A stretch of 37,689 nt of DNA, from contig VGWF01000033.1 of the NCBI GenBank assembly GCA_016873715.1, positions 1-37,689 of the forward strand, in the 5' to 3' direction. The notes beneath the pieces were generated by a model, which was given only the letters and a program-made list of their open reading frames with translations, ran no database searches and was not told the origin of the DNA. Shown in pieces: positions 5,594 through 37,647 of the stretch. Every line of letters begins with the position of its first letter. The stretch's first letter is position 1. A program made the translations under genes and the position numbers. This DNA is from Lentisphaerota bacterium. Its GTDB lineage: Bacteria; Verrucomicrobiota; Kiritimatiellia; PWTM01.

Positions 5594-6571
5594 TCAGGCA
5601 TCCTCGGGGATCCCGAGCTCCTTCAGCGTGCGACGCAGCCACGCAAGCGACTGCTCGATCATCGGGCCGCCCTGCCCCTCGCACTCCATGCTCAGGACGC
5701 CCGTATACCCGCTGTCGCGAAGCACCGCGAGGCACTGCTTGATGTTGTCCGCGTTCACGCCGTCGCCCAGCGCGCAATGGCTCACGGCGATCCCGGTCAT
5801 GCCGCCGCGGACGGCCTTCGCCAGCGACTCGGAGACGTCCTTGATGTGGACATGGCTCACCTTGCCGATGAACCGCTTCAGGAAGGCGACGGGATCCTGC
5901 CCGGCGATGAAGGTGTTGCCGGTGTCCATGTTCATGCGAAGGTACGGGCTGTCGCAGAACGCCAGCATCCGCTCCATCATGTCCGGCCGCGTCGTGAAGT
6001 AGCCGTGCGGCTCGATGTTGACGACCACCTTGTGGGCGGCGGCGACCTCGATGATCTGCTCGTACTCCGACTTCATCAGGTCCATCGCCTGCGGGTCCTT
6101 CAACCCTTCCGGCGCGTGCAGGCCGTCGGTCGTGTCGACCCGGTCGCAGCCGGCCAGCTTCGCCCACGCGATCGACTTCATGACGTACGGCACGCCGCGC
6201 AGCGGCCCGTCCTTGCCGGACAGCGGGAAGGCCGCATCCACCTGCGAGAACCGCACGCCGTACCCCGCCATCTTCTGCCGCAGCAGCTCCGGATCCTCGT
6301 AGAGCGCGACGTGCGGCTGGTAGCCGAGCCCGTGGATCCAGCTCACGCCGTCGATCAGGCCGCACTCGATGAAATGCACGCCGTTCTTCTGCGCCCATTT
6401 CAGGCAGTCCTCGAAGCTCTTGTAGGTCGAGTTGAACGCGTCCGTGTGGAATCCGATCTTCATCGCTCCCGCTCCCTTCCCTGCGGCTCTTGCCGCACCC
6501 GTCGCCGCCAGAACCGCACCCGCAGCCGCCCCCGCGGCCACGAACTCACGCCGGGTCATACCCGCCGTCAT
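5594..6571 (-). CDS. Tat-exported sugar phosphate isomerase/epimerase-like TIM-barrel protein
   Basis: A 325-residue AP-endonuclease-2-like TIM barrel (xylose isomerase-like, PF01261). The twin-arginine motif TRREF (residues 6-10), a hydrophobic stretch and an ARA cleavage site near residue 29 predict Tat export. Metal-site candidates of the fold are visible: Glu187 (NIEPHG), Asp216 (MDTGN), His240/His242 (HVHIKD) and Glu296 or Glu298 (MECEG). Family members include epimerases, 3-keto sugar lyases and DgpC/CarB-type deglycosidases; the exact reaction cannot be read from sequence. The start at 6571 overlaps the Gfo/Idh stop as ATGA, which implies translational coupling. The gene ends 9 bp from the convergent lipoprotein gene with no visible terminator. 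It is the last gene of the TetR-led operon. Confidence 0.85.
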   Translation of the reverse strand: MTAGMTRREFVAAGAAAGAVLAATGAARAAGKGAGAMKIGFHTDAFNSTYKSFEDCLKWAQKNGVHFIECGLIDGVSWIHGLGYQPHVALYEDPELLRQKMAGYGVRFSQVDAAFPLSGKDGPLRGVPYVMKSIAWAKLAGCDRVDTTDGLHAPEGLKDPQAMDLMKSEYEQIIEVAAAHKVVVNIEPHGYFTTRPDMMERMLAFCDSPYLRMNMDTGNTFIAGQDPVAFLKRFIGKVSHVHIKDVSESLAKAVRGGMTGIAVSHCALGDGVNADNIKQCLAVLRDSGYTGVLSMECEGQGGPMIEQSLAWLRRTLKELGIPEDA

Positions 6572-7839
6572 GACTTCAGTCCCTTCAGGTCCGCCTCGAT
6601 CGCCCGGTTCTCCCGGATCAGCTCGTCCATCGTCACGCAGCCCCGCCGGGCCGCGGCCTCGCGCCCGAGGATCGCCGTCAGCGTGCCGTCCACGGCGCGC
6701 TGCGCCGACACCGTGTCGTACGGCCCCTCGCAGATGCGGCGGTGGAACTCGGCGATGTTGCGGACCACGCCATCCTTGAAGACGCCGCCGATCTCGCCGG
6801 CGTAGGTCTTCGGCCCGCCGCGGAGGTACGCCTTCCCGCCCTTGTACTGCAGCGACACGGTGGCGACCGTGCCGAAGACCTTCGCGGAGAGCGTCACGAG
6901 ATCGTCCCAGTGGTTGTCCAGCGCCTGCGTGACGTGCGTCCAGCAGGCGCCCCCGGCGAACTCGTAGATCGCCGAGAGCGTGTCGGTGCGGTCGCCGTGC
7001 GGTTCGGTGCGCCACGTGCGCGAGTGGCCGCACGCGCGCACCGGTCGCTCGCCGAGCAGCCAGACCAGCGCGTCGAGGATGTGGATGTCGTACGAGACGA
7101 CGGTATCGCCGCTGAGCGCCGTGTCGGAGAGCCAGACCTGGTCCCGCAGGCGGCTCTCGATCGTCGGGCCGACCGGCGGGTCGGGCCACGCGTGCCAGCC
7201 GAAGCCGAACGACAGGACGTGCGTCAGCGCCCCGAGCCCGCCGTCGCGCACGCGCGCCGCCAGCTCGATCATCACCGGGTCGGTCGGAAGCTGGTAGTCG
7301 ACCAGCAGGCAGCGCCGCTTCGACGCGCACACCCGCCCGGCCTCGCCAACCGCGAGGCAGCCGGGCACGTCGACGGCGACCGGCTTGGCCATGTAGATGT
7401 GCAGGCCCGCCTCCGACGCCGCCTTCGCCTGCTCGGGGTAGAAGTACGGCACATCCTCGATCGCGACGGCCTCGACGCCGCTCTCGATCAGCCGCTTGTA
7501 GCCGGAAAGCCCGCTGAAGCAGCGGGACGGGTCGACGCCCAGCTTCGCCCCCGCGGCGCGCGCGACATCCTCGAAGTAGTCCGCGACGGCATGGAACACG
7601 AAGCCGCCGTGCTCCTGCATCAGCTGCGCGATCCACTTCCCGCGCCCGCCGCAGCCGACGAGGCCGATCCGGACCTTGCGGTCGTGCACCGGCGGCTTCA
7701 CGGGCGGCGCATTCGTTTCCGCCGCCGGCGCGGCGATCGCGGCGAGCGGAAGGGCCGCTCCCAGCGTGCCGCCCAGGAACCCGCGGCGGCTGATCCCGCC
7801 CGCGGCGCCGTTCATTCCCTCGATCCGGTTCGCACCCAT
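6568..7839 (-). CDS. Tat-exported Gfo/Idh/MocA family oxidoreductase (second copy in operon)
   Basis: A 423-residue NAD(P)-dependent sugar oxidoreductase. The Tat signal SRRGFLGG (residues 17-24) precedes a hydrophobic stretch. The Rossmann fold is RIGLVGCGGRG (58-68). The family's EKP motif is AKP here (151-153), so the Glu is replaced but the lysine is kept. The active-site block SYDIHILDALVW (249-260) carries Asp251, His253 and Asp256. ATG 7839 has TAGGAGG ending 7 nt upstream, and this site overlaps the stop of the preceding gene, 10 nt away. The coupled downstream gene is the TIM-barrel isomerase. Exported Gfo/Idh enzymes normally carry tightly bound NADP and travel folded by Tat (glucose-fructose oxidoreductase is the classic case). 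The substrate is unknown. Confidence 0.88.
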   Translation of the reverse strand: MGANRIEGMNGAAGGISRRGFLGGTLGAALPLAAIAAPAAETNAPPVKPPVHDRKVRIGLVGCGGRGKWIAQLMQEHGGFVFHAVADYFEDVARAAGAKLGVDPSRCFSGLSGYKRLIESGVEAVAIEDVPYFYPEQAKAASEAGLHIYMAKPVAVDVPGCLAVGEAGRVCASKRRCLLVDYQLPTDPVMIELAARVRDGGLGALTHVLSFGFGWHAWPDPPVGPTIESRLRDQVWLSDTALSGDTVVSYDIHILDALVWLLGERPVRACGHSRTWRTEPHGDRTDTLSAIYEFAGGACWTHVTQALDNHWDDLVTLSAKVFGTVATVSLQYKGGKAYLRGGPKTYAGEIGGVFKDGVVRNIAEFHRRICEGPYDTVSAQRAVDGTLTAILGREAAARRGCVTMDELIRENRAIEADLKGLKS

Positions 7840-7849
7840 GGCCGTCCTC

Positions 7850-8755
7850 CTACGGTTTGCGGAACTCCTCCCACGCCGACACGGCCGCCGCATCGGTCAT
7901 GCCGCGACCGACCGCCAGCCGCACCACGGCGGAGGCCGACTCGCCCGGGCCGAGGTCGCGCCCGAAGAGCGAGAGGTACAGCGAGCGGTGCGCCTCCGCC
8001 CCGTGCGGCGTCAGCACCGCGAAACAGTCGTCCGGCCGGGCCATCACGAGGACCGTCCGTCCCGTCGGCCCATCGCGCCGCAGTCCGAGCGGCGCGGCGA
8101 ACGGCGGACGGATCGCCCACTCGACCGGGTGCGGCGGACGCGCCCACCGGCCGTCGCGCACGGTCGCGACCGCAGCCTCGTCGCGCGGAAACGCCTGCCA
8201 GACCCCCGAGGCCTCGTCCGCCGCCACGAAGGCCGCGCCGCCGGCGGTCTTCGCGAGAACGCGCGAGTCGGCGAAGCCGTTGAAGTACGATGCGACGAAG
8301 ACCTCCATCCGCCGCAGCGCCTTCCGCGCGGTCAGCGTCGTCTCGAGGTCCAGCGTCGACGGCGTCCGCCAGCGGTAGACCGCGCGCAGCTCGAAGGGAT
8401 GGGCCGCGTCCGCCGGCCAGGTCGCCTCGACGGCGCCGTCGGAGAGCACCCGCGCCGCGCCGCCGGTCCAGCCCCACCCGTCGGGGTGGCGGGTGTCGGC
8501 GTCCAGCAGGCGGTAGAATCCGAGAACCCCGTTGCGACCTGCGAGATTCGTGCCGGTGGCGGCATCGACCAGCTCCGTCAGCCCCGCCGGCCGCCCCCCG
8601 CCCCGCAGCACGCCGCGCAGTTCCCCGGTGTCGAACCGGAACCCGGCGCCGGCCGGCTCGAAGCGCAACCCGGTCGGCCCGCCGGCGGTGCAGGTCGGCA
8701 CCCATCCCATCCCGGCGAGAACGCCGATCACCGCCGGACGAATCCAGCGTTTCAT
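7850..8755 (-). CDS. Exported beta-sandwich protein, possibly mutarotase-like, unknown function
   Basis: A 301-residue protein with an N-terminal signal peptide (MKRWIRPAVIGVLAGMG, cleaved near CTAG). The rest is beta-strand-rich, with phrases such as GFRFDTGELRGVL, LTELVDAATGTNL, RAVYRWRTPSTLDLETTLTA and GRTVLVMARPDDCF. The pattern (normalising sugar side, strand-dense, large C-terminal sheet) recalls galactose-mutarotase-like superdomains, but I cannot name a family with confidence. It starts 2 nt after the stop of HEAT-ThuA and ends 10 nt before the Gfo/Idh start, so it is in the operon. A supporting role in handling the anomer of an exported sugar derivative is inference only. Confidence 0.6.
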   Translation of the reverse strand: MKRWIRPAVIGVLAGMGWVPTCTAGGPTGLRFEPAGAGFRFDTGELRGVLRGGGRPAGLTELVDAATGTNLAGRNGVLGFYRLLDADTRHPDGWGWTGGAARVLSDGAVEATWPADAAHPFELRAVYRWRTPSTLDLETTLTARKALRRMEVFVASYFNGFADSRVLAKTAGGAAFVAADEASGVWQAFPRDEAAVATVRDGRWARPPHPVEWAIRPPFAAPLGLRRDGPTGRTVLVMARPDDCFAVLTPHGAEAHRSLYLSLFGRDLGPGESASAVVRLAVGRGMTDAAAVSAWEEFRKP

Positions 8756-8757
8756 GC

Positions 8758-11700
8758 CTATTCCACCTTCAGTCCCGCCGCCCAGGCCGTGCCGCGGCGG
8801 TAGAGGTCGCCGACCGTCTTCGCCTCGAAGGCCTTCGCATCGTGGCCCAGCACGCAGTGGAAGACCCGCCCCTTGCCGTACTCGAGGACCAGGGCCATCG
8901 GGTAGACCTTCGAGTCGACCTTCGACGTCGCCGTCGCGATCACGCGGATCGGGGTGTCGCCGTCGAGACAGGTGTAGAGCTCGTCCTCCGTCTCGAAGTC
9001 CGCCAGACCGGCTGTGACCGGATGGTCGCGGTCGGCGATGACCACGCGGAACGGTCCGCGCGGATCGTGGCCCCGCAGCTTCGGATTCCACACGCGGCCC
9101 GCGATCCTCACGAACTCGGGCCAGCCCTGGAACGCGCCGCAGGCGAAGTGCACCAGCACGAGGCCGGTCCCGTTCGACACCGCGGCCCGGAGGTTCTCCT
9201 GCGCCGCGGCGCCGGGCCCGGGATCCTCCCAGTTCATGTAGTTGAGCACGATGGCATCGAAGGTCTTCAGGTCCGCGGCGCCCCACGCCTTGGGATCCTC
9301 GGACACCTCCACCGCGAGACGGGCGTCGGCCGCGATGGCGTCGCGCAGCAGCGGAGCCGTGATCTTCCACTTGTGGCCGGGATACTCGAGCCCCGTCGCC
9401 AGCAGCACGCGCTTGCGCGGCCCGGCCGGCACCGCGCTCGCGGCCGGGGCAACGGCGGCCGTCGCGGCGCCTGCCGGACCGGCATCGATCAACCACGCCT
9501 CGCCGACGACGACATTGCCGCTGCCCTCGCGCCGCACGCCGATGCGCAAATCGCCGTCGGCGCCCGGCAGGTCGACCGCGATCCGGGCGGGGCCCTTGCC
9601 CTCGCGGCCGGACGGCAGGTCGGTCGGCGGCAGCGCACGGCCGCGCATCACCCACACCGACTGCTTCCGCCCGTTGCCGTCGAAGTCCCACCACGCCACC
9701 ACCAGCCGGTAGGCCCGCTTCGCGTCGAGGCCCGTCACCTGGATCGCGACCTCGGCGTCGGAGAACGCGACCGAGGCCGACGGCACGTCCGCCGCGGCCA
9801 CCGCCCCATCCCAGAAGTAGGGCCGGGAGCCGCCGATCCTGAGCCGCTGCGGCGCCTCGGGCGACTCGGATTCGGGGCCGCAATCGAGATAGGCCGCAAG
9901 CGTCTGCCCGGCCGGCAGCGCCTTCGCGATCTCCGCCACGCGCGCGGCACGGTCGGCGGGCGACATCGTCTTCGCGGAGGTCTGCCCCTTCGCCTCGCGG
10001 ATCAGCGCGTGCGCCTGCGGCTCCGCGGGCGGGCCGGGCTTCAGCGCGACCAGTTCCGCCATGGCCGCCTCGACGGCCGGCGCGTCCTGACGGATGAGCT
10101 TCCTCGCAACGGCGACGGCGGCCAAGGCGGCCTCGGACGCGACCTCCCGGTCCTTCGCCAGGTCGAGCGCCATCCGCAGCGCGGCCGGCCCCGACGTCTC
10201 GCCCAGCGCCGAACAGATCGCGCGCCGGCTTTCCGCGTCCGTCGCAAGCGGCACGGCCTTCGCCAGCCATTCAAGGGGCTTCGGCGCGGCCGGCGCAAGT
10301 CGCAGGGCGCCGCGCAGCGCCAGCGCCCGGTGCACCGGCGACGGGGCCTCCTTCGCCAGCGCCAGCAGATCCGGCAGCGCGTCCGCGTCCGCCCAGTCCG
10401 ACAGCGCGCGGATCGCGGTATCGCGCACCGCCTCGGTCTGGCTGCCGGCGCGCTCGCGCACGGCGGCCAGCGCCCCGGGACCGCCCAGGCCCGCGAGCAC
10501 GCGCAGCAAGGCGGCGGCTGCCCCGGCCGGCAGGTCCGGGGCCGCCAGTGCCGCGGTCACGACCGATGCCGTACCCGCATCCGCACCCGCGCGCCGGCCG
10601 ATGCCGATCACCGCCAGTTCCATCTCGCGGCCCGCCGCCCCGGTCGCGGTGCGCAGCGACGAAAGCAGCGCCTTCAACTCCGACGACGTGCCGATCGCCG
10701 CCAGACCGCGGGCCACCGCGACCTGCACCGCGGACTCCGCCGCGCCAAGCTGTCCAGCCAGCATCGCCGCCGCCCCGGCGCTCCGGCGCGCCACGGCCGC
10801 CCCGACCAGGACCACGCAGGTGCCCGGCTCGGACCGGCCCGTCAGCGACACGATGGCCTCGTCGGCCTTGGGATCCCGGATTGCGGCCAGCGCCTCGCCG
10901 GCCGCCTGGCTCCCACCCGCCGCGGACGCGGCCAGGCATTGGACATCCTCCGCCGTGCCCATCGCGCCCAACGCGCGGGCGGCGGCCTCGCGGACCCCGC
11001 CGTCCGTATCGCGCAGCAGCGGCCGCACGGACGGCAGCACCGATGCGTCGCCCCGCAGCGCGAGGGCGTCGAGCACCAGCGCCTTTCGGACCGGCGCAAG
11101 CGTGGCCAGTTTCGCCGCCATGCCCCGGGTGGCCGCGCCGTCGGCGGTCTGCGACAGGATCCCGATCGCCGACTCCGCCACGAAGTCGTCCGGCCCGGCC
11201 GCGGCCGCAAGCAGGTCCGCTGCGGCGGCCCCGGCGTCGATCCGCGCCAGCGTTGAAAGCGCCGCGACCTGGTCCGCGGGCGCCCCCCCCGCCTTGACCA
11301 CCGGCTGCGCCAGCGACAGGGCCGTCGCGCGATCCCCGCCGGCCGCGAGGCGCAGGGCGCACTCCAGCTTCGCGGCGCGCGCGGCCGGACCGGCCGCTCC
11401 GGCCAACGCCTCCGCCGAGGCCTTCGTGCCGTGCGCGCCGAGCGCACGGACCGCCGCCTCCGCCGTCGGTCCATCGGGATCACGCGCCAGCTTCGCCAGC
11501 GCCGGAACGGCCGCGGCCTCGTGGCGCGCCGCCAGCGAGTGCATCACGCCGATCCGCGCCTTGCCGGACAGCCGCGGCAGGGCCTCGAGCAGGGCCCGCC
11601 CGGCTTCCGGAGCGGGAATCATCTCCAGCGCCAGCCGCGCCGCATCCGAGTGGCGGTCCTCGGCCAGCCGCCGCGCGAGCGACGGCACTTCGGCGGCGCC

Positions 11701-12012
11701 TCCGACGCGGCCGAGTTCGCGACAGAGATAGGCCACCGCGTCCGGCTTCGTCGCGGCATCGTCCAACGCCGCCGCCAGCGCGGCCGCCAGGTCCGTACGC
11801 GCGGCACGATCGTTCATCGAGCGGATCGCGTACGCCTCGACCGCCTTGACCGGCTTCAACGACGCGCCCGTCTCGTAGGCCTGCAGCGCCTTCAGCGACT
11901 CCGCCACATCCGGCGCCATCGACGCCAGACCCATGTGCGACGACGCCCATGCCAGCGCCACCGCCACATGCAGCATCCCCCGACATCCGACACCCGACAC
12001 GTGACACTTCAT
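8758..12012 (-). CDS. HEAT-repeat protein fused to a C-terminal ThuA domain
   Basis: A 1084-residue exported protein. A signal-like N-terminus is followed by many alpha-helical HEAT-type repeats (about residues 60-690; units such as AVPALAKLARDPDGPTAEAAVRALGAHG). A beta-rich linking domain follows (about 695-850: AAYLDCGPES, VAIQVTGLDAKRAYRLVVAWWDFDGNG). A ThuA-like class-I-glutamine-amidotransferase fold fills about 866-1075 (RVLLATGLEYPGHKWKITAP, AIVLNYMNWEDPG, GLVLVHFACGAF, FHCVLGHDAKAF). ThuA is a partner of the 3-keto-disaccharide oxidase ThuB in rhizobia. ATG 12012 follows GAGGG with a 4-nt gap and starts 7 nt after the upstream stop. ATG 11976 gives a cleaner signal peptide and skips a heptamer array; it may be the true start. 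Confidence 0.8.
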   Translation of the reverse strand: MKCHVSGVGCRGMLHVAVALAWASSHMGLASMAPDVAESLKALQAYETGASLKPVKAVEAYAIRSMNDRAARTDLAAALAAALDDAATKPDAVAYLCRELGRVGGAAEVPSLARRLAEDRHSDAARLALEMIPAPEAGRALLEALPRLSGKARIGVMHSLAARHEAAAVPALAKLARDPDGPTAEAAVRALGAHGTKASAEALAGAAGPAARAAKLECALRLAAGGDRATALSLAQPVVKAGGAPADQVAALSTLARIDAGAAAADLLAAAAGPDDFVAESAIGILSQTADGAATRGMAAKLATLAPVRKALVLDALALRGDASVLPSVRPLLRDTDGGVREAAARALGAMGTAEDVQCLAASAAGGSQAAGEALAAIRDPKADEAIVSLTGRSEPGTCVVLVGAAVARRSAGAAAMLAGQLGAAESAVQVAVARGLAAIGTSSELKALLSSLRTATGAAGREMELAVIGIGRRAGADAGTASVVTAALAAPDLPAGAAAALLRVLAGLGGPGALAAVRERAGSQTEAVRDTAIRALSDWADADALPDLLALAKEAPSPVHRALALRGALRLAPAAPKPLEWLAKAVPLATDAESRRAICSALGETSGPAALRMALDLAKDREVASEAALAAVAVARKLIRQDAPAVEAAMAELVALKPGPPAEPQAHALIREAKGQTSAKTMSPADRAARVAEIAKALPAGQTLAAYLDCGPESESPEAPQRLRIGGSRPYFWDGAVAAADVPSASVAFSDAEVAIQVTGLDAKRAYRLVVAWWDFDGNGRKQSVWVMRGRALPPTDLPSGREGKGPARIAVDLPGADGDLRIGVRREGSGNVVVGEAWLIDAGPAGAATAAVAPAASAVPAGPRKRVLLATGLEYPGHKWKITAPLLRDAIAADARLAVEVSEDPKAWGAADLKTFDAIVLNYMNWEDPGPGAAAQENLRAAVSNGTGLVLVHFACGAFQGWPEFVRIAGRVWNPKLRGHDPRGPFRVVIADRDHPVTAGLADFETEDELYTCLDGDTPIRVIATATSKVDSKVYPMALVLEYGKGRVFHCVLGHDAKAFEAKTVGDLYRRGTAWAAGLKVE
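11980..12007. repeat. Heptamer array (CCGACAN) at the operon junction
   Basis: Four 7-bp units, CCGACAT, CCGACAC, CCGACAC and GTGACAC, lie between the upstream Gfo/Idh stop (12020) and the alternative ATG 11976 of HEAT-ThuA. If the long start is right, this array is translated; the other arrays in the window are outside genes. Confidence 0.65.
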
Positions 12013-12019
12013 GGCACCC

Positions 12020-13336
12020 TCACAACGTCCACGGGCTGCGATAGCCGCGCGACAGCATCCGGTTGGCCGCATCGTCGTTCTCGAACCGCTCCGCCGCCCA
12101 GTTCCAGACCATGGGCCGCCCGGTCCGCGTCGCGATGTCCGCGACCAGCGTCGCGGTCGTCGCGAGGTGGCACGCCCCGGCCGGGGCCACCGGCTCGCGG
12201 CGCGTTCGGATGCACTCCAGGAAGTTGAGCTGGTGTTCCTTCGAGACGTACAGGTGCTCGTCGGAGGGCCTCAGCACCGTCTCCAGCAGCGAGGCCGGCT
12301 CCGCCCGGATCCCGCCGCGCACGACGTGGACCCAGCCCTTGTCGCCCTCGAACCTCACGCCGTGGCCGTGCCTCGCCTCGCCGTCGGAGCAGAAGTCCAG
12401 CAGCACGCCGCCCGGCTCGCGCAAGCGCGTGTGCCAGGCGTACGAGACGTCGCCGTCGCCCTCGTCGGGGAACGTCGCCGTGCCTTCCACCTCCAGCTTC
12501 GACGCCGCCAGCGCGGGCGCGCCCCACAGCGCGATGTCCACGTGATGCACGCCCCAACTCTGGATCCAGCCCGCGCAGTAATCGCTCGCGAAGTACCAGT
12601 TGTACGTGCAGAGCCCGTCGCGGTACGGCTTGAACACCGCCGGACCGAGCCACAGGTCGTACTGGAGATCGTCCGGCACCGGCGCCGCCGGCAGCACGCC
12701 GAGCGCGCGGCCCCCGGGCACCCCGACCCACGCGGTGTGGACCTTCCCGAGATAGCCGTTGCGCGCGAGTTCGCAGGCGAAGCGGAAGTTGCGGTCCGAC
12801 CTCTGCTGCGTGCCCGCCTGGAACACGCGCCCGGTGCGCTTGACCGCGTCGCACACGGCCCGCCCCTCGGCCACGGTCAGTGTCAGCGCCTTCTCGCAGT
12901 AGACGTCGCGTCCGGCGCGCATCGCGTCGATCGACATCTTCGCGTGCCAGTTCTCCGGCGCGGTGATGATGACCGCGTCGACGTCGTCGCGCGCCAGCAC
13001 CTCGCGGTAGTCCTGGACCGCGGCGCAGCCCGCGCCGGCCGCCGCCCCGTAGTGACCGTCGACCAGCCCCTTGATCTTCTCGGCCTTCGACCGGAACACG
13101 TCGCACACCGCCGTGATGCGGACCGGGTCCACCGGCAGCAGGCCGCGGATATGCGCCGGCCCGCGGTCGCCCAGCCCGATCACGCCGATGCCGATGCGGT
13201 CGTTCGGCGCCACGATCCCGCCGCGGCCCAGCACGCGCGACGGCAGCACCAGCGGCGCCGCCATCGCCACCGCCGCCGATCCCAGGAACCGGCGCCGCCC
13301 CATGCGCGCGCCGCCCGACATCCGGATTCCGCTCAC
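12020..13336 (-). CDS. Tat-exported Gfo/Idh/MocA family oxidoreductase (first copy in operon)
   Basis: A 438-residue NAD(P)-dependent oxidoreductase. GTG 13336 is chosen because it overlaps the tetR stop by 4 nt (GTGA) and has AAGGGAGG 6 nt upstream; ATG 13321 and 13303 are alternatives. Tat motif GRRRFLGSA (residues 13-21). Rossmann motif GIGVIGLGDRG (49-59). The canonical EKP is EKA (148-150), with the catalytic-type lysine kept. The His-His-x-Asp of the substrate site is WGVHHVDIALW (261-271). It differs from the second operon copy in the EKP position and in most active-site surroundings, so the two may act on different steps or substrates. A candidate TetR operator lies 46-63 bp upstream, inside tetR. 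Confidence 0.88.
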   Translation of the reverse strand: MSGIRMSGGARMGRRRFLGSAAVAMAAPLVLPSRVLGRGGIVAPNDRIGIGVIGLGDRGPAHIRGLLPVDPVRITAVCDVFRSKAEKIKGLVDGHYGAAAGAGCAAVQDYREVLARDDVDAVIITAPENWHAKMSIDAMRAGRDVYCEKALTLTVAEGRAVCDAVKRTGRVFQAGTQQRSDRNFRFACELARNGYLGKVHTAWVGVPGGRALGVLPAAPVPDDLQYDLWLGPAVFKPYRDGLCTYNWYFASDYCAGWIQSWGVHHVDIALWGAPALAASKLEVEGTATFPDEGDGDVSYAWHTRLREPGGVLLDFCSDGEARHGHGVRFEGDKGWVHVVRGGIRAEPASLLETVLRPSDEHLYVSKEHQLNFLECIRTRREPVAPAGACHLATTATLVADIATRTGRPMVWNWAAERFENDDAANRMLSRGYRSPWTL

Positions 13337-14004
13337 GCTCCGCCTCCCTTCGCGCCGCGGCGCGACGCCGCGGGCTTCCCACCATACTGAACGGTATGGC
13401 TCCCTGGCCTCCCGACCACCACCTCGAGGAGCCCCGCGGCCACCGCCGCCTGCTCGTCCGGATCCGCGATGTGCGGCTCGAAGGCCGCGCGGAGCTTGAG
13501 CCCCTCCATCGCCTCCAGCATGAGATCCACGCGCGGACGCGCATCGCCCGGCGGAAAGACCCCGGCCGCCTTCGCCGCCGCCACGAGGCCGAGGTAGAAC
13601 TCGCGCACGGTGTCGTAGAACTGGAACCAGCTCGACCGCACGGCGGCGTCGGACTGCATCAGCGCGAAGAGGCCGGTCGTGAAGCGGCGGTTGGCCGGAT
13701 CGGCCACGCAGGAGCGTACGCTGAAGTCCAGCGCGCGCCGCAGCCGGGCCATGGGGTCCGTCAGTGGGGCGAGGACCGCGTGGACCTGCCGCTGCCAGCG
13801 GCGGTAGTAGTGGTTGCAGGCGGCGAGGACCAGCTCCTGGCGCGAGCCGTAGTGCCAGTAGAGGCTGCCCTTCGTGACGCCGGCATGCGCGGCGATCTCG
13901 TCGAGGTTCGCGCCCTCAAGCCCCTCGCGCGCGAAGAGCTCGAACGCGCTCCTCCCCAGCCGATCCGCCATGTCCGCACGCCGGGCAGCCATGTTCTGGA
14001 CCAT
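13333..14004 (-). CDS. TetR/AcrR-family transcriptional regulator of the downstream operon
   Basis: Residues about 18-62 form the TetR N-terminal helix-turn-helix (FELFAREGLEGANLDEIAAHAGVTKGSLYWHYGSRQEL), with the YxHYxSK-like block. The rest (about 80-200) is the helical ligand and dimer domain; 223 residues is normal. ATG 14004 gives the longest form, but a promoter-like TTGACT-N18-TATGGT would put the first transcribed base near 13992, where an in-frame ATG (MAARRADMADRLG) could be read from a leaderless message. Two copies of the same 18-bp palindromic site flank this gene, so self-repression and control of the operon are inferred. The stop overlaps the next start by 4 nt. The inducer is unknown. 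Confidence 0.88.
   Translation of the reverse strand: MVQNMAARRADMADRLGRSAFELFAREGLEGANLDEIAAHAGVTKGSLYWHYGSRQELVLAACNHYYRRWQRQVHAVLAPLTDPMARLRRALDFSVRSCVADPANRRFTTGLFALMQSDAAVRSSWFQFYDTVREFYLGLVAAAKAAGVFPPGDARPRVDLMLEAMEGLKLRAAFEPHIADPDEQAAVAAGLLEVVVGRPGSHTVQYGGKPAASRRGAKGGGA
13382..13399. promoter_or_regulatory. Second TetR operator candidate, inside tetR and upstream of Gfo/Idh
   Basis: Read on the minus strand, CCATACCGTTCAGTATGG. It matches the tetR promoter site GCGTACCGATCGGTATGG at 14 of 18 positions and has CCATAC/GTATGG ends. It lies in the 3' end of tetR, 46 bp before the Gfo/Idh start. It could control an internal start of the operon. Confidence 0.6.
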
Positions 14005-14029
14005 ACCGATCGGTACGCGGGGGAGTCAA
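14000..14029 (-). promoter_or_regulatory. tetR promoter with overlapping TetR operator
   Basis: A -35-like TTGACT (14029-14024) and -10-like TATGGT (14005-14000) are 18 bp apart. Between and over the -10 lies the palindrome TACCGATCGGTA (14004-14015), the usual position for a TetR repressor site. The -35 falls in the first unit of the heptamer array at 14026. The predicted start of transcription is close to the ATG at 13992. Confidence 0.5.
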
Positions 14030-14074
14030 CAACCAACAGCCAACAACCGACACCCAACAACCAACATCCAAGCC
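14026..14074. repeat. Heptamer array CCAACAN upstream of tetR
   Basis: Seven 7-bp units: TCAACAA, CCAACAG, CCAACAA, CCGACAC, CCAACAA, CCAACAT and CCAAGCC. The same word family returns at 37606-37647, where the array also starts with TCAACAG. The array leads directly into the 35-bp-period array. Confidence 0.75.
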
Positions 14075-14311
14075 GGTCCCACCGGGCTTGTCCTCGCACC
14101 CGTGCAAACGGTCCCACCGGGCCTGCCCCAGCAAGCGTGCAAACGGTCCCACCGGGCTTGTCCATCCACCCGCGATCCCGGTCCCATCTTGCGCCCGTGC
14201 TAGCGGTCCCACCGGGCTTGTCCTCGCACCCGTGCAGCCGGTCCCACCGGGCCTGCGAACCGTCCCACCGGGCTTGCCCTCCCACCTGCGCAATCGGTCC
14301 CACCGGGCTTG
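14074..14311. repeat. 35-bp-period direct repeat array (core CGGTCCCACCGGGCTTG)
   Basis: A 17-bp core recurs eight times, starting at 14074, 14109, 14144, 14179 (decayed), 14204, 14239, 14260 and 14295. Spacings are 35, 35, 35, 25, 35, 21 and 35 bp. The bases between cores are also alike (TCCTCGCACCCGTGCAAA type). The core holds the inverted repeat CCCACCGGG. Together with the neighbouring heptamers it fills the gene-free stretch 14005-14407. Confidence 0.85.
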
Positions 14312-14407: not shown

Positions 14408-15067
14408 TCAGCGCAGCGCCAGCTCCGCGAGCCTCGCGCCCAGCTTCCTCGCCGTATCGAGCCCCGCCTCGTCCTTCGAGATGTCGTCCTTCTCCGAGAG
14501 CAGCGTCGCACCGGGCGTGGCCGGCGACAGCCCGCCGACCGGGATCATCCCGAAGCAGAGCATCGCCGCCTGGATCGAGGCGATGACGAGTTCGTGTCCG
14601 CCGCTGCGGGTGCCGCCGACGGCCACGCACCCGAGGAGCTTGCCCGCGAGAACCGGCTTCGGATCGCGCAACGGCGAACACCGCTCGATGAAGGCGCGGC
14701 ACAGCGAACTCGGCCCGCGGTAGTAGGAGGGGGAGCCGATCACGAGCGCTGCGAGGGCCGGATCCTGCAGCTTCGCCAGCAGCGGCGTGAAGTCGTCCTC
14801 CGGCGGCGGCTTCGCGTAGCCCGCCACCTTGAGACCGCCCAAGTCGACCAGTTCCACTTCGATCCGCGCATCCACGGCCTTCGCCGCGTCGAGAACGGCC
14901 TGCACGGCCTTCGATGTCGTCATGCCCTTCCGCGGGCTGCACGACACGCCCAGGATCCTCACCGTCTTTGCCGCGCCTGCCGCCTGCGCCGCCGCGCCCG
15001 TCGCCGACAGGGCCGCCATCGCACCGGCCAGCCCCAGGAATTTCCTCCGGTCCACCCGTTCGCTCAT
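14408..15067 (-). CDS. Tat-exported flavodoxin-like / NADPH-dependent FMN reductase family protein
   Basis: A 219-residue protein. The Tat signal DRRKFLGLAG (residues 6-15) and an alanine-rich hydrophobic stretch end near AQAAG. The flavodoxin-like fold follows: VRILGVSCSPRKGMTTSKA (phosphate-binding loop), ALVIGSPSYYRGPSSLCRAFIERC (the flavin loop of the family) and VAVGGTRSGGHE. The family comprises FMN-dependent NAD(P)H oxidoreductases and iron-sulfur flavoproteins. The partner is unknown. The start at 15067 has AAAGGGGAG ending 5 nt upstream. It is divergent from pabB-pabC and separated from tetR by repeats, so it is probably its own unit. Confidence 0.85.
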   Translation of the reverse strand: MSERVDRRKFLGLAGAMAALSATGAAAQAAGAAKTVRILGVSCSPRKGMTTSKAVQAVLDAAKAVDARIEVELVDLGGLKVAGYAKPPPEDDFTPLLAKLQDPALAALVIGSPSYYRGPSSLCRAFIERCSPLRDPKPVLAGKLLGCVAVGGTRSGGHELVIASIQAAMLCFGMIPVGGLSPATPGATLLSEKDDISKDEAGLDTARKLGARLAELALR

Positions 15068-21930: not shown

Positions 21931-24206
21931 GTCGGTTCCGCCTTCCTTCGCCGGGCCGGCCGCGCCGCGGACATCGCCCCATCCCCGTCCCCATCCCCGT
22001 CTCCGCCGCCGGCCGCCAGCCGGTCCGCCAGGTCCTCGAGCTTCGCCACGTAGTACGGCACGTTCTCGTCGCGCCGGTCCGGGTTCCAGGCCGACACGGG
22101 GCGGGCCGCCGCGTGCACCGCGACGCTCTTGCGCTCGCCGGTGACATAGTACGATATCGCATCCCCCGCCCGATAGGTCTTTCCGGAGGCCAGCGCAAGC
22201 TCGTAGGCGGCGTTGCGGCCCCGTCCGCCCGCCTTCTGCTTCGCGGCGTAGGTCTCGGGCGCGTCCTGCAGGCGCTCGGTCCTCGCCAGCCGGCGAACGT
22301 CCCATTCGCGGTTGACGATCGCGCGCCGGGTGCGGGCGGTCAGTTCCTCGATCTCCGCGTCGCGTCCGCGCAGCCGCAGGTCGAGGTACGCGCGGATGTA
22401 GTCGCGCAGGAACGGCTCGAGGCCGCGCGAGCGCAGCGCGGCGCCGGTGATCAGGATCTCCCCGTCGCGGGCGAGCAGCGCGTAGTTCTTGCGGCGGTAG
22501 CTGAACATCGCCTCGTACTCGTCGTCGAACTCGAGCTCGATGCCCGCGGGCAGGGTCGCGCGCACCGCGGCGCGGAACGCCTCGAGGCCCGAGGCGTCCC
22601 CCGCCGGCGGCACGAAGTAGACGCCGTCGGTGTCGATCTCGACCGGCCGGCCGCCGGCGGCGCGGATGGCCTCCACCATGCCCGAGAGGACCTCGCGTCC
22701 GCGCGCGGTGACGCGCTCGGCGGCGTCGAAGTCGTTGAACCGCGCCATCTCGAAGCCGAGGTAGCCGTAGAAGGAGTTGATCAGGATCTTGAACGTGCCC
22801 TGCAACGCATCCTCGGACGCCCGCGCGTCGTCGTCCGCCGCCGCGCGCATGCGGTCCTTCGCCGCCAGCCGGAACGCGCGGAGATGACCGAGCAGGCGGA
22901 GGAACACGCCGAGCCGGTCGGAGGCCGGGCCGAGCCCCTCGGCGAGCATGAGCGAGGGATAGAGCGAGCGGACGTCGCAGTGGTGCACGGTCCGGATGAC
23001 GCCCGTCTCGAAGAGGTCCGTCAGCCCGCCCTCGAAGGCGCGGCCGGCGCCGGGGCGCGGCACGGCGGCGCGCCCCGCGAGGTACTCGCGGAGCATCAGC
23101 GCGTCGATCTTCGCCGCGCTGCCGCGAAGCGCGGCGTTCTGCAGGCCCATCGGGACGATCCGCGCCTGCGCGACGTGGACCGGCGCCAGGCGCGCCGCGA
23201 GGGCGGCGGTCTCCCGCACGTCGTCGGCCAGGTAGCGCAGCACGCGCGCGGGATCGGTCCGGAACACGCGGCCGATCTCGCCGCCCTCGATCGTCTCGCG
23301 CCCCTGCGGCGAGAAGCCGAAGTGGCGCGCGACCTCCTTGAGGCCGAACCCCGGCAGCGAGCGGTGCCCCACGTCGTAGATCTGCACGAGGAAGTAGGTG
23401 TCGAGGATCGTGCGGCCGAAGACGTCGGCCCGCGGGTACTGGATCGTGCGGTCGGCGGAGACGAACCGCCCGGAGCGGATCCGCGGCGCCGAGCCGTCGC
23501 GGCCGATGCCGAGCGTCACGCCGTGCCGGCGCGCGCGGCGGACGAGGTAGTCGAGGTCGAACGCGAAGACGTTGTGTCCCTCGATCACGTCGGGATCCCG
23601 TTCGCGGACGGCCTCGACGAAGCGGCGCAGCATCGCGGGCTCGTCGAGGCGCGATCCGTCGATCGTCCCGCTCCATCCCGTGCTGTCCGCGAGCCCGATG
23701 GCGAGGATGCGGTCGCCCTCGCGGTCGGGATTGGAGAACTCGTAGCCCTCCTCGGTCTGCGTCTCGATGTCGAGCTGCATCCGGCGAAGGCCGCCGAAGG
23801 TCAGCCCCTGGAACAGGGTGCGGCCGGAGTCCATCAGGAACTGCTGGACCGGGTCCTGGAGGACGAAGTACGGGGCGCGGGCGTCGCCGGCGCCGAGGCC
23901 GGTGGTCTTCCGGAGCCACGCGAGGGCCTGGTCGAGCGCCTTCCACGTCGGGACCCGCGCCAGCGCGCGCAGGGCGCCGTCTCCCGCGAGCGGCTCCGTC
24001 TCGTGCGGCCCGGCGAAGCCGTCGAGCGTCGCGGCGGATTCGAGCCACAGGAACGGGCGGAACGGGACCTCCTCCGACGTCACGCGGTCGCCGGAGCGGC
24101 GGAAGAGGACCATGCGGTCGCCGCCGGCGGCGGGGGCGTGCTCGACGGCGACCAGCCCGGGGTCGGGATGCCGCCCGAAGACGAGGGCCTGGTCCGACGC
24201 GTTCAC
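21927..24206 (-). CDS. Family B DNA polymerase with 3'-5' exonuclease
   Basis: A 759-residue polymerase, near the length of E. coli Pol II (783). Exonuclease motifs: LDIET (145-149), a FDLDYL block (N-x2-x-FD type) and YLADDVRET. Polymerase motifs: A is DVRSLYPSLML (about 408-418), B is KILINSFYGYLG (about 474-485) and C is EIDTDGVYF (about 520-528), where the usual DTDS is DTDG. The catalytic Asp residues are kept. GTG 24206 is chosen because it lies 17 nt after the lptD stop and precedes ALVFGRHPD; the first ATG is 31 residues in. The C-terminus ends in a GD repeat from a 12-bp tandem. Role: replication restart or translesion synthesis by homology; unproven. Confidence 0.9.
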   Translation of the reverse strand: MNASDQALVFGRHPDPGLVAVEHAPAAGGDRMVLFRRSGDRVTSEEVPFRPFLWLESAATLDGFAGPHETEPLAGDGALRALARVPTWKALDQALAWLRKTTGLGAGDARAPYFVLQDPVQQFLMDSGRTLFQGLTFGGLRRMQLDIETQTEEGYEFSNPDREGDRILAIGLADSTGWSGTIDGSRLDEPAMLRRFVEAVRERDPDVIEGHNVFAFDLDYLVRRARRHGVTLGIGRDGSAPRIRSGRFVSADRTIQYPRADVFGRTILDTYFLVQIYDVGHRSLPGFGLKEVARHFGFSPQGRETIEGGEIGRVFRTDPARVLRYLADDVRETAALAARLAPVHVAQARIVPMGLQNAALRGSAAKIDALMLREYLAGRAAVPRPGAGRAFEGGLTDLFETGVIRTVHHCDVRSLYPSLMLAEGLGPASDRLGVFLRLLGHLRAFRLAAKDRMRAAADDDARASEDALQGTFKILINSFYGYLGFEMARFNDFDAAERVTARGREVLSGMVEAIRAAGGRPVEIDTDGVYFVPPAGDASGLEAFRAAVRATLPAGIELEFDDEYEAMFSYRRKNYALLARDGEILITGAALRSRGLEPFLRDYIRAYLDLRLRGRDAEIEELTARTRRAIVNREWDVRRLARTERLQDAPETYAAKQKAGGRGRNAAYELALASGKTYRAGDAISYYVTGERKSVAVHAAARPVSAWNPDRRDENVPYYVAKLEDLADRLAAGGGDGDGDGDGAMSAARPARRRKAEPT
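21977..22000. repeat. 12-bp tandem repeat CCCCATCCCCGT in the polymerase 3' end
   Basis: Two copies of CCCCATCCCCGT in a row, followed by a near copy of the first half. They encode a Gly-Asp run (GDGDGDG) at the C-terminus of the polymerase. Confidence 0.7.
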
Positions 24207-24223
24207 GGGCGGGGCGCTCCGGC

Positions 24224-26544
24224 TCAGCCGCCGAGGTTCGCGGTCAGGTACGGCATGGCCAGCAGCCAGAGCTGCGCCCAGGCGGTCACCTCGTCCTCGC
24301 GCCCGTCGTAGCCGGGCTCGTGCACGATGCCGATGCCCCAGCCGATGCAGTCCATCTTGCGGCGCAGGAAGTACGAGTGCTCCTCCAGGCGGCTGTCGAG
24401 CATGTCGTAGCGCGCGTAGGCCCCGAAGGACCACTTGCCGCGCGGGTTGAACTGGATCTGGCTCGCGATCAGGTCGCGGCGGTCGTTCTGGAAGAGGTAG
24501 TTGGCGTTGAACTGGAAGGCGCCGCCGCGCGGGCTGTAGGAGAGCTGCCCGTCGAAGAACGTCATCCCCTCCCCGTAGAGGTCGAAGCGCGACTTGAAGT
24601 CGAACCGGAAGGACCGCGAGGGCCAGAACCGGGCGTTCGCGTAGAGGGGGCCGAACTCCTCCTCGTCGACCTCGGGATCGAGCTGGAAGATCGTGCCGAT
24701 GTCGGCGTTGACGAGGTCGTGGACGCTCCACTGGTCGGCGGTCGCGATCTCGCCGAGCTCGGTCTGGTCCATGCCCTCGGCGTTCCGCGCGACCGGGTCG
24801 TCCGTGCGGTTGACGGAGTGGTCGACGAACAGCAACGTCGGCCGCCGCGTCTGGAACTTGTGACGGAAGCCGAACTGGACGGCGTTCTGGCCCGCGAGCC
24901 CGTCGACCGAGTCGAACTGCGGCAGGCTCTCGGCCAGCAGGTCGGGCTCGGGGATGTAGGAGTAGTTCGCGTAGGGCTCGACGACGTGCCGCAGGCCGCG
25001 CCCCCACACGGTCTCGCCCTCGTGGAGGACCTTGTACGCCTTGTAGGACGTCTCGAAGCCGATCTCGTAGAGGTTGCGGAAGTCGGCGCCGAGCTCATCG
25101 CGCGTCGTCGTGATCTCGTCGGTCACGGTCGACACGCCGTTCGAGTCGACGGTCGTCACCTGGTTCGTGACCGAGACGGCCGGCGCGTAGGTCGTCGAGT
25201 AATGCGTGCCGCGCCATCCCGCGCGCGGCGTCAGCGCGAGGAAGCCGAAGAACCGGCGGGGGAGGTAGACGGTGTGCAGCGTGTCGACGCGCGTCGCGTC
25301 GTACTCCTCGTCGTCCGACGTCTCGGGATAGACGCGCGTCAGGGCGGAGGCCGTGGTCCGGCTCTCGTAATAGAGCGGCGAGTTCCCGAGCCGGAGCGAC
25401 GGGATCGTCAGCGTCGCCTCCGGGAGGCGGTTGACGTTGCTGTAGAAGTCGTTCAGCCGTCCGTTGGCCTGGAGGGAGAAGATGTAGGCGTCGCCCCGGT
25501 GGGTCCACGAGGCCCGGTTCTCCGGCTGCACGCGGCGGCGGTTCTCGCGGCGGAAGAAGTCCTCCTGGACGTAGGGATCGCTCAGGTAGGTTCCGTCGGC
25601 GAAGAGGGCGTCGCGGGACGTGACGCTCGCCGTGTGGCGCAACCGGAGGCGGTACCGCTCGGACTCGGTCAGGGTGTCCTCGCGCTCGGCCTGCTCCTGC
25701 TCGCTGCGGTAGAGCTGGCTGTCGCTGATGAAGAAGCCGTCGAGGTTGCCGCGGAAGCCCTGCCCCTCGCGGCCGCCCCACAGGACGTTCTGTCCGACGC
25801 CGACGCCGCGCTTCGAGTACCCGTTGATCGATGTCTCGCCCTGCAGCAGCCCCGCGTCGTCGAACCAGTAGTGGTAGGTCGACACGACGAAGGCGCCGAG
25901 ACGCGAGCTGAAGCCCGGCATCACCGCCCACCCGCCTCCGCGGCCGCCGGTGAGGTTGCGGCGGTAGTACGGCGTCCAGAGGACCGGCACGGGGCCGAGG
26001 TAGGTGACGACGTTGTACATCGTCAGGTACTTCTGGTCGGTCAGGGTCGCGCGCTCGGCGACGACTTGGAACTCGCGAAAACGTCGCCCTCGCAGGTCGT
26101 CAGCACGACGTCGCGGATCTCGATCCGGTCGCGCGACACCATCGTGAAGCCGGCGCCGTGCAGGTAGTAGGGATCGCGGTAGAGGAGGAACTTCCCGAAA
26201 TCGCCGGCGCCGGTCTTGAAGTTGTACCGAAGCTCCGGGCCCTTCCAGACGGTCCCGTCCCACCGCACGAAGACGACCCGGTCGCGCGCGTAGAGCTCGT
26301 CCGTCTCCCGGTTCACCTCGACGTAGCCGGCCGTGATGACCTGGCGCCCCTGCCGGATGTAGACGTTGCCCTCGGCCGTGAGGAGATTGCCCCCGCGCGC
26401 GCTCCCAAGCTTCTCCGCGCGGATGTCGTAGGGCAACCCCGCGTCGGGATTGTCGTCGCCCCCCACGTCGAACACGGCGCCGCGGGCCGCGACCCACCCC
26501 GCCATCCACGCGAACGCCAACATCACGATCCGGAACCGCGCCAT
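24224..26544 (-). CDS. lptD: LptD (OstA/Imp), LPS-assembly outer-membrane protein, reading frame broken near 26080
   Basis: Outer-membrane barrel that inserts LPS. The N-terminal part (26544 to about 26080) gives MARFRIVMLAFAWMAGW (signal peptide) and the OstA jellyroll (RAEKLGSARGGNLLTAEGNV, RQGRQVITAGYVEVN, RDVVLTTCEGD). The main barrel (about 26080-24224) continues in another frame with FQVVAERATLTDQKYLTMYN, PVPVLWTPYYRR and the C-terminal strands (FDFKSRFDLYG, WSFGAYARYDMLD). The break falls at the AAAA run 26078-26081. Adding one base joins both parts into 773 residues, a normal LptD length. The broken frame may be a sequence error; an essential protein would be lost otherwise. ATG 26544 has AAAGGG 8 nt upstream. 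Confidence 0.85.
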
Positions 26545-37605: not shown

Positions 37606-37647
37606 TCAACAGCCAACACCCAACAGCCAACATCCAACAACCAACGG
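37606..37647. repeat. Heptamer array CCAACAN at the right edge
   Basis: Six 7-bp units: TCAACAG, CCAACAC, CCAACAG, CCAACAT, CCAACAA, CCAACGG. It is the same word family as the array at 14026. The last seven bases of the window (37683-37689) are GCTCTCT, the first unit of the array at 17103; whether an array continues is not visible. Confidence 0.75.

Follow-up and report, generated by a model that had tools for sequence, protein, structure and literature searches.

What is done by an operon in which two putative sugar oxidoreductases with predicted export leaders stand beside a ThuA domain, a protein of mutarotase fold and a TIM barrel? This question is raised by a contig of a Lentisphaerota bacterium of the Kiritimatiellia (assembly GCA_016873715.1, contig VGWF01000033.1), of which the window analysed here covers positions 1 to 37,689. 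We have found that six genes of this window form an operon that is conserved in Kiritimatiellia. Our preferred reading, suggested by the sequence and given not quite an even chance, is that this TetR-regulated operon serves to process a sugar or glycoside outside the cytoplasm without hydrolysis. What the sequence shows directly is the set of genes, their operon spacing, their conservation, the twin-arginine leaders and an intact metal signature, and from these we infer the reaction steps.

A conserved six-gene operon

The minus strand encodes all six genes, which run from 14004 to 5594:

13333 to 14004, minus strand: tetR, a TetR-family regulator and the first gene of the operon (Pfam TetR_N, 52.5 bits)
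12020 to 13336, minus strand: gfo1, a Gfo/Idh/MocA oxidoreductase with a leader of the twin-arginine translocation (Tat) type, a distant relative of glycoside 3-dehydrogenases (Pfam; GTG start)
8758 to 12012, minus strand: HEAT-ThuA, HEAT repeats, a linker domain and a ThuA domain, with predicted export (Pfam HEAT_2 and ThuA)
7850 to 8755, minus strand: mut, a galactose-mutarotase-like beta-sandwich fold with a probable Sec leader (AlphaFold model; no Pfam family)
6568 to 7839, minus strand: gfo2, a Tat-type Gfo/Idh/MocA oxidoreductase (Pfam GFO_IDH_MocA_C3, 37.9 bits)
5594 to 6571, minus strand: tim, a xylose-isomerase-like TIM barrel with a Tat leader (Pfam AP_endonuc_2, 101.1 bits)

An earlier note on this DNA had described these genes as joined by 4-nucleotide overlaps or gaps of at most 10 nucleotides, and this is what we found (tetR/gfo1 -4, gfo1/HEAT-ThuA +7, HEAT-ThuA/mut +2, mut/gfo2 +10 and gfo2/tim -4 nucleotides). 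Its domain reading agrees with Pfam after two refinements, the additional domain between HEAT and ThuA and the lack of a Pfam family for mut. A promoter scan gave a single weak sigma-70-like site (14029-14000), which overlaps the tetR start, and no terminator-like site.

The same genes keep company in other genomes, so their being together in the window is more than chance. L038 (in genome G229) has all six plus a further TIM barrel, TIM2, in the order tetR-mut-gfo1-HEATThuA-gfo2-tim-TIM2, while tetR-mut-gfo1-HEATThuA-tim-TIM2 is found in L020 (with a partial tetR, on the same contig as L039) and in L021. The mut protein is fused to the C-terminal side of ThuA in L013 (G006), where the order is tetR-gfo1, the HEAT-ThuA-mut fusion, tim and TIM2, and in L015 (G002; same contig as L023), which has tetR-gfo1 and the fusion without tim or TIM2. 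A gene for an MFS transporter appears in two genomes: L060 (G013) reads tim-MFS-TIM2-gfo1-HEATThuA, and in G151 tetR-tim-MFS-TIM2-gfo1 stands at a contig end (L061) and HEATThuA opens another contig (L083). Both of these genomes have mut and gfo2 paired elsewhere (L014, L036). L037 (G355) reads tetR-gfo2-...-mut-ThuA-tim-TIM2, with a ThuA that has no HEAT part. Fewer of the genes are seen in L062 (G253; tetR with tim, where a contig ends), in L016 (gfo2-mut), in L019, L022, L024 and L025 (mut without the other queried genes) and in G304, which has a ThuA gene (L084) and a gfo1 match on separate contigs. In L082 (G007:C53; a partial tetR, gfo1, and HEAT-ThuA and gfo2 both split over frames) the broken frames appear to be a decaying copy or assembly errors.

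Thus HEAT-ThuA has orthologues in L013, L015, L020, L021, L038, L060, L083 and L084, TIM2 is present in seven loci, beside tim or one gene off, and tetR orthologues (39-64% identity) adjoin the cluster in L013, L015, L020 (partial), L021, L037, L038, L061, L062 and L082 (partial). A search of named genomes with a four-row profile of mut gave 10 loci, and a phylum-wide search of 387 genomes detected mut in 10, weakly in two of these. A ThuA orthologue is also present in 10 of the 387 and, at strict thresholds, accompanies gfo1 in 9/9 genomes, a strong mut in 8/8 and tim in 7/8. The contigs that carry L037 and L017 have a 3-keto-disaccharide-hydrolase gene.

These data bear on the possibility that the genes are a loose collection of generic exported proteins, common in the group and serving no single pathway. 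The window genome (5.1 Mb, 289 contigs) has 85 Gfo/Idh, 29 3keto-disac_hyd (27 over the cut-off) and 8 ThuA (7 over) matches, so that such genes would often be neighbours by themselves. However, the orthologues stay together across four families in spite of changes in order, and two of them are fused in two genomes, and we therefore regard a loose collection as very unlikely.

The gfo2-mut pair of L014 is flanked by a glucuronyl-esterase-family gene and another TIM barrel. Directly upstream of the pair (L014 9096-11512) lie this esterase gene (PF22244) and a gene for a 318-residue protein that has a twin-arginine leader and belongs to no Pfam family, which may hint at esterified uronides as the substrate of one branch.

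The TIM barrel and the oxidoreductases

As read from its sequence, tim has a metal quartet (E187, D216, H242 and E296) and a histidine, H189, two residues past E187. The E-x-H at strand 5 and the following D, H and E are conserved in 12 of 12 aligned TIM1-type sequences, the window's included, whereas TIM2 has E-x-x-N-R in 7 of 7. By sequence, tim has the residues that mark an eliminase: strands 5-8 carry the putative metal ligands, and the strand-5 ligand is followed at a distance of two residues by a His. In AtOGE and PuCGE the strand-5 ligand (His132 in AtOGE, Glu in the CGEs) is accompanied by the catalytic His134 or His143, and the AtOGE H134A variant is inactive (PMC10628242; here and below, papers are cited by PMC number and from excerpts of their text). 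The E-x-H with its metal quartet therefore favours an oxidation followed by elimination or hydration. AsbF, a dehydratase, has E-T-H at the same position in a profile alignment. The signature points to abstraction of a proton next to a ketone, with a leaving group lost or gained, and indicates no particular substrate.

The fold does not decide the identity of tim, as many isomerases score within a few Z units. The structural search proposed in the earlier note did return isomerase folds for the tim model (pLDDT 81), with Z 29.9 to the isomerase Art22, for which we found no literature, but no single function was singled out by it. The C-deglycosidase 8qrz and the hydratase AtHYD (8ro4; Z 25.2, root-mean-square deviation (rmsd) 3.0, 261 residues aligned) match in fold without a sequence match. 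When the tim profile was compared with solved proteins, the matches were Art22 (E 2e-13), MJ1311, AsbF, IolE and UlaE. None of the characterised glycoside eliminases came below E 0.05, the best CGE match being DgpC1 (E 0.07). With no significant eliminase match and so many isomerases close in fold, we have rejected naming tim from its solved relatives.

The operon might instead carry out stereochemical remodelling and not cleavage, in which case one Gfo/Idh would oxidise C3, tim would epimerise the neighbouring carbon and the other Gfo/Idh would reduce the ketone, as YcjQ, YcjR and YcjS do. The make-up is the same, two Gfo/Idh proteins and one TIM barrel, and YcjR (6wn6) ranks within the top 50 Foldseek matches of tim (YcjR and 8qrz, both in the Foldseek list, lie outside the 50 VIA-align matches, an absence that is not counter-evidence). 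Nevertheless, tim has the E-x-H of the eliminases in the comparison of TIM1-type with TIM2 sequences, and a TIM2 with E-x-x-N-R accompanies it in the seven loci, which would make TIM2 the more natural epimerase. TIM2 is scored best by the D-psicose 3-epimerase model (132-166 bits in 3/3 tested, below the cut-off of 300). We consider remodelling by tim doubtful.

Turning to the oxidoreductases, gfo1 has Pfam GFO_IDH_MocA (65.8 bits) and C2 (59.5 bits) domains. Its match to the glycoside 3-dehydrogenase model NF058561 (BT_2158_fam) reaches 119.4 bits over the N-terminal part only (residues 14-273), which is a superfamily-level score far below the cut-off of 750, and we rejected gfo1 as a member of that family; a genome-wide profile search found no gene of the window genome above this cut-off. 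The best solved relatives of gfo1 are 8tdf and 8tdh, whose PDB titles are merely 'Dehydrogenase' and 'Predicted dehydrogenases', and DgpA comes fourth in the profile search. The Rossmann domain of gfo2 scores 22 bits, just below the Pfam cut-off of 24. An Asp after Rossmann strand 2 is invariant in both proteins (D79 in gfo1 and D87 in gfo2). Such a residue usually means NAD binding, which argues for NAD and not for the NADP assumed in the earlier note.

The nearest solved sequences of gfo2 are GFOR and inositol dehydrogenases. Another reading is inositol or polyol catabolism, in which the two Gfo/Idh proteins would be inositol dehydrogenases and tim would be an inosose dehydratase resembling IolE. 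IolE and IolG are the best NCBIfam matches of tim and gfo2, respectively, and IolE structures align with tim at Z 25.6-26.6, but the scores are far under the cut-offs (42.1 bits against 290 for TIGR04379, which leaves tim outside the IolE family, and 37.5 bits against 355 for IolG). Moreover, the known iol pathway includes, to our knowledge, no ThuA, no mutarotase-fold protein and no exported oxidoreductases, and we find this explanation decidedly unlikely.

Export, ThuA and the proposed pathway

Both oxidoreductases look exported. All nine gfo1 orthologues (the window, L013, L015, L020, L021, L038, L060, L061 and L082) have twin arginines with a hydrophobic stretch behind them, and so do all seven aligned gfo2 sequences, one of them just 35% identical. 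In the window, the three motifs that the earlier note had picked out (GRRRFLG, SRRGFLG and TRREF) all belong to twin-arginine leaders. Export remains a prediction, since the TIGR01409 Tat model (cut-off 16.7) gives 14.2 for gfo2 and 11.5 for tim and does not list gfo1. The leader of HEAT-ThuA was judged Sec-type by eye, and that of mut is of the Tat type in L037 and Sec-like by eye in other loci. A leader is seen in just three of the nine close tim orthologues, those of the window, L037 and L038; the tim proteins of L013, L020, L021, L060, L061 and L062 appear to begin at the barrel, and TIM2, judged by its start, has none. That the enzymes are exported together, as had been proposed, is thus true of the window species by its sequence, but it is not a conserved design, given the leaderless tim and TIM2 proteins and the MFS transporter of two genomes.

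The HEAT-ThuA protein matches Pfam HEAT_2 (89.5 bits, E 1.8e-25) and ThuA (PF06283; 102.8 bits, E 4.1e-29, above the gathering score of 33.4), the latter at residues 868-1078 and over the full profile (1-209). Its motifs DELYTCLD and GH are conserved in 7 of 7 aligned sequences. The conserved linker domain of about 150 residues between HEAT and ThuA has no Pfam family and no trustworthy match in Pfam or the PDB. The window genome also has an open frame (L005, G000:C6, about 24199-24903) that matches both a ThuA domain and a TIM barrel of the xylose-isomerase type, and this may be another sort of fusion between ThuA and a sugar enzyme.

In the case of mut, the AlphaFold model (pLDDT 89.5) aligns with mutarotase-fold enzymes at Z of about 15-19 and rmsd mostly of 3-4 Å over 200-250 residues (best VIA-align matches), and Foldseek agrees. 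At E<=1 there was no aldose-epimerase match for the mut proteins of the window and L037, nor any PDB match for the mut profile. The likeness being one of fold alone, we rejected mut as a member of the galactose mutarotase (aldose 1-epimerase) family, and this modelled likeness shows no function.

On our preferred reading of non-hydrolytic processing outside the cytoplasm, gfo1 and gfo2 would acquire their fold and their bound NAD(H) in the cytoplasm, be exported by Tat and then oxidise a hydroxyl group of a sugar, most probably at C3. DgpA works by a ping-pong mechanism with bound NAD(H) (PMC11239390), which shows how an exported Gfo/Idh protein could run without a cytoplasmic cofactor pool. 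The redox cycle might be closed by the second Gfo/Idh or by a 3-keto monosaccharide. Using a divalent metal and H189/E187, tim would take the proton beside the ketone and eliminate the C1 group, or add or remove water. The exported ThuA and mut may act jointly on the same substrate or on an anomer of the keto-sugar, with the HEAT repeats as a scaffold. In the relatives the later steps (leaderless tim, psicose-epimerase-like TIM2 and the MFS importer) would take place in the cytoplasm or its membrane, so that the pathway would straddle the inner membrane, and the window species would have one more step outside. A more specific proposal is that ThuA and mut form an exported two-part catalyst acting on keto-sugars made by the Tat-exported Gfo/Idh proteins, and that the compartment boundary is movable, tim being either exported or cytoplasmic behind an MFS importer; we think this rather unlikely as a whole, and if it is true ThuA gains a defined reaction.

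Several observations weigh against the pathway that we prefer. We know of no established reaction of ThuA, and Pfam recognises no glycosidase or transporter among the six operon genes. The genome is so rich in Gfo/Idh, 3keto-disac_hyd and ThuA matches that a 3-keto theme is ordinary for this organism. Similarly, by pattern, 18 of the best 30 of its 85 Gfo/Idh genes have a Tat-type leader, and two more therefore say little, and gfo1 ranks 45th of 80 BT_2158-model matches in its own genome. The co-occurrence p values (2e-17 for gfo1, 4e-15 for mut and 4e-12 for tim) include the window genome and ignore shared ancestry. As for tim, AsbF has the E-x-H and acts on a non-sugar, so the signature supports elimination chemistry and not a glycoside substrate; the tim profile is insignificant against the TIM barrels 8tcd, 8tcs and 8tct (E 0.4-1.1), and epimerases also rank high in the fold searches. 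Finally, the window genome has no close TIM2 (best paralogue 38% identity), although an assembly gap is possible with 289 contigs.

Known 3-keto systems and the flanking DNA

The idea that a periplasmic version of 3-keto chemistry would be new did not hold, as there are precedents in print. BT2158 of Bacteroides thetaiotaomicron has been termed a periplasmic glycoside 3-dehydrogenase (PMC11300592), the BT2159-BT2156 operon acts on glucosinolates (PMC12385236), and strains lacking BT2157 or BT2158 grew without defect on sugars of the raffinose family (PMC11501099). In Caulobacter, lactose is oxidised at C3 in the periplasm, a DUF1080 protein being the proposed hydrolase (PMC9007349). The window resembles BT2156-BT2160 in an exported Gfo/Idh protein that scores on the BT_2158 model. 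Another Gfo/Idh protein also belongs to the Bacteroides set, and so does a TIM barrel resembling sugar isomerases, as in the window operon. In contrast, gfo1 is far under the BT_2158 cut-off, the window operon has no 3-keto-disaccharide hydrolase, and the excerpts on BT2156-BT2160 name no counterpart of HEAT-ThuA or of the mutarotase-fold protein.

The order oxidation, elimination, hydration and reduction is established for levoglucosan (PMC7676230) and proposed for glycosides in Agrobacterium (PMC10628242), where LgdA-B1-B2-C and GlycDH-AtOGE-AtHYD, respectively, provide two oxidoreductases and two TIM barrels. Two Gfo/Idh proteins with two TIM barrels are seen in L038, whereas the window operon has one TIM barrel, with a leader, and adds ThuA and the mutarotase-fold protein; the Agrobacterium GlycDH, moreover, is of the GMC family (PMC11239390).

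The earlier note had pointed to the ThuA/ThuB and Dgp systems, but there is no family-level match to either. DgpA is a Gfo/Idh protein (PMC11239390) and the DgpBC C-deglycosidase has a TIM barrel with a Glu ligand and a catalytic His (PMC10628242); in contrast to that system, no second eliminase subunit was recognised here, and the profile match of tim to a CGE is insignificant, as given above. In the rhizobial ThuAB system a single operon encodes ThuA, ThuB and an ABC transporter. Its genes (thuEFGKAB) share with the window a ThuA domain adjoining Gfo/Idh genes, but the window ThuA is predicted to be exported and is fused to HEAT repeats, and Pfam finds no ABC gene among the six. E. coli YcjQRS, in which two dehydrogenases and an epimerase of TIM-barrel fold act on 3-keto-glucosides, differs in the ABC importer and phosphorylases alongside (PMC11543891) and in the eliminase-like signature of tim.

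The general 3-keto chemistry is already known in other bacteria, and what is new, as far as our literature searches reach, is a composition with the HEAT-linker-ThuA protein, the ThuA-mut fusion and a tim that apparently switches compartment among relatives. In the open literature, most subscription journals lying outside it, we found no paper that connects ThuA and 3-keto chemistry with the Kiritimatiellia or phyla related to them. That glycans can be broken down without hydrolysis, by way of 3-keto sugars, has only recently become part of carbohydrate biology, and genomes such as this one hold dozens of uncharacterised Gfo/Idh, ThuA and TIM-barrel genes. Here a compact conserved cassette, with its fusion of ThuA to a mutarotase fold, narrows what ThuA could do and makes its role directly testable, and the natural variants offer one step inside or outside the cell.

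Upstream of the operon, an FMN-reductase-family flavoprotein with a twin-arginine leader is encoded at 14408-15067 on the minus strand. We rejected it as an operon member, since it lies 403 nucleotides upstream with a repeat-rich stretch between, and no homologue was found in those clusters of relatives where this gene was among the queries. In the repeat-rich stretch (14027-14306, upstream of tetR) the 17-mer GTCCCACCGGGCTTGTC occurs 4 times out of 20 in the genome (reversed control 0) and is a dispersed repeat. Two similar short CAAC-type tandem arrays lie at 14027-14071 (CAACAACCAACACC) and 37607-37645 (CAACAGCCAACACC), and near the contig end, at 37100-37244, there are two exact tandem copies of 72 bases (100% match).

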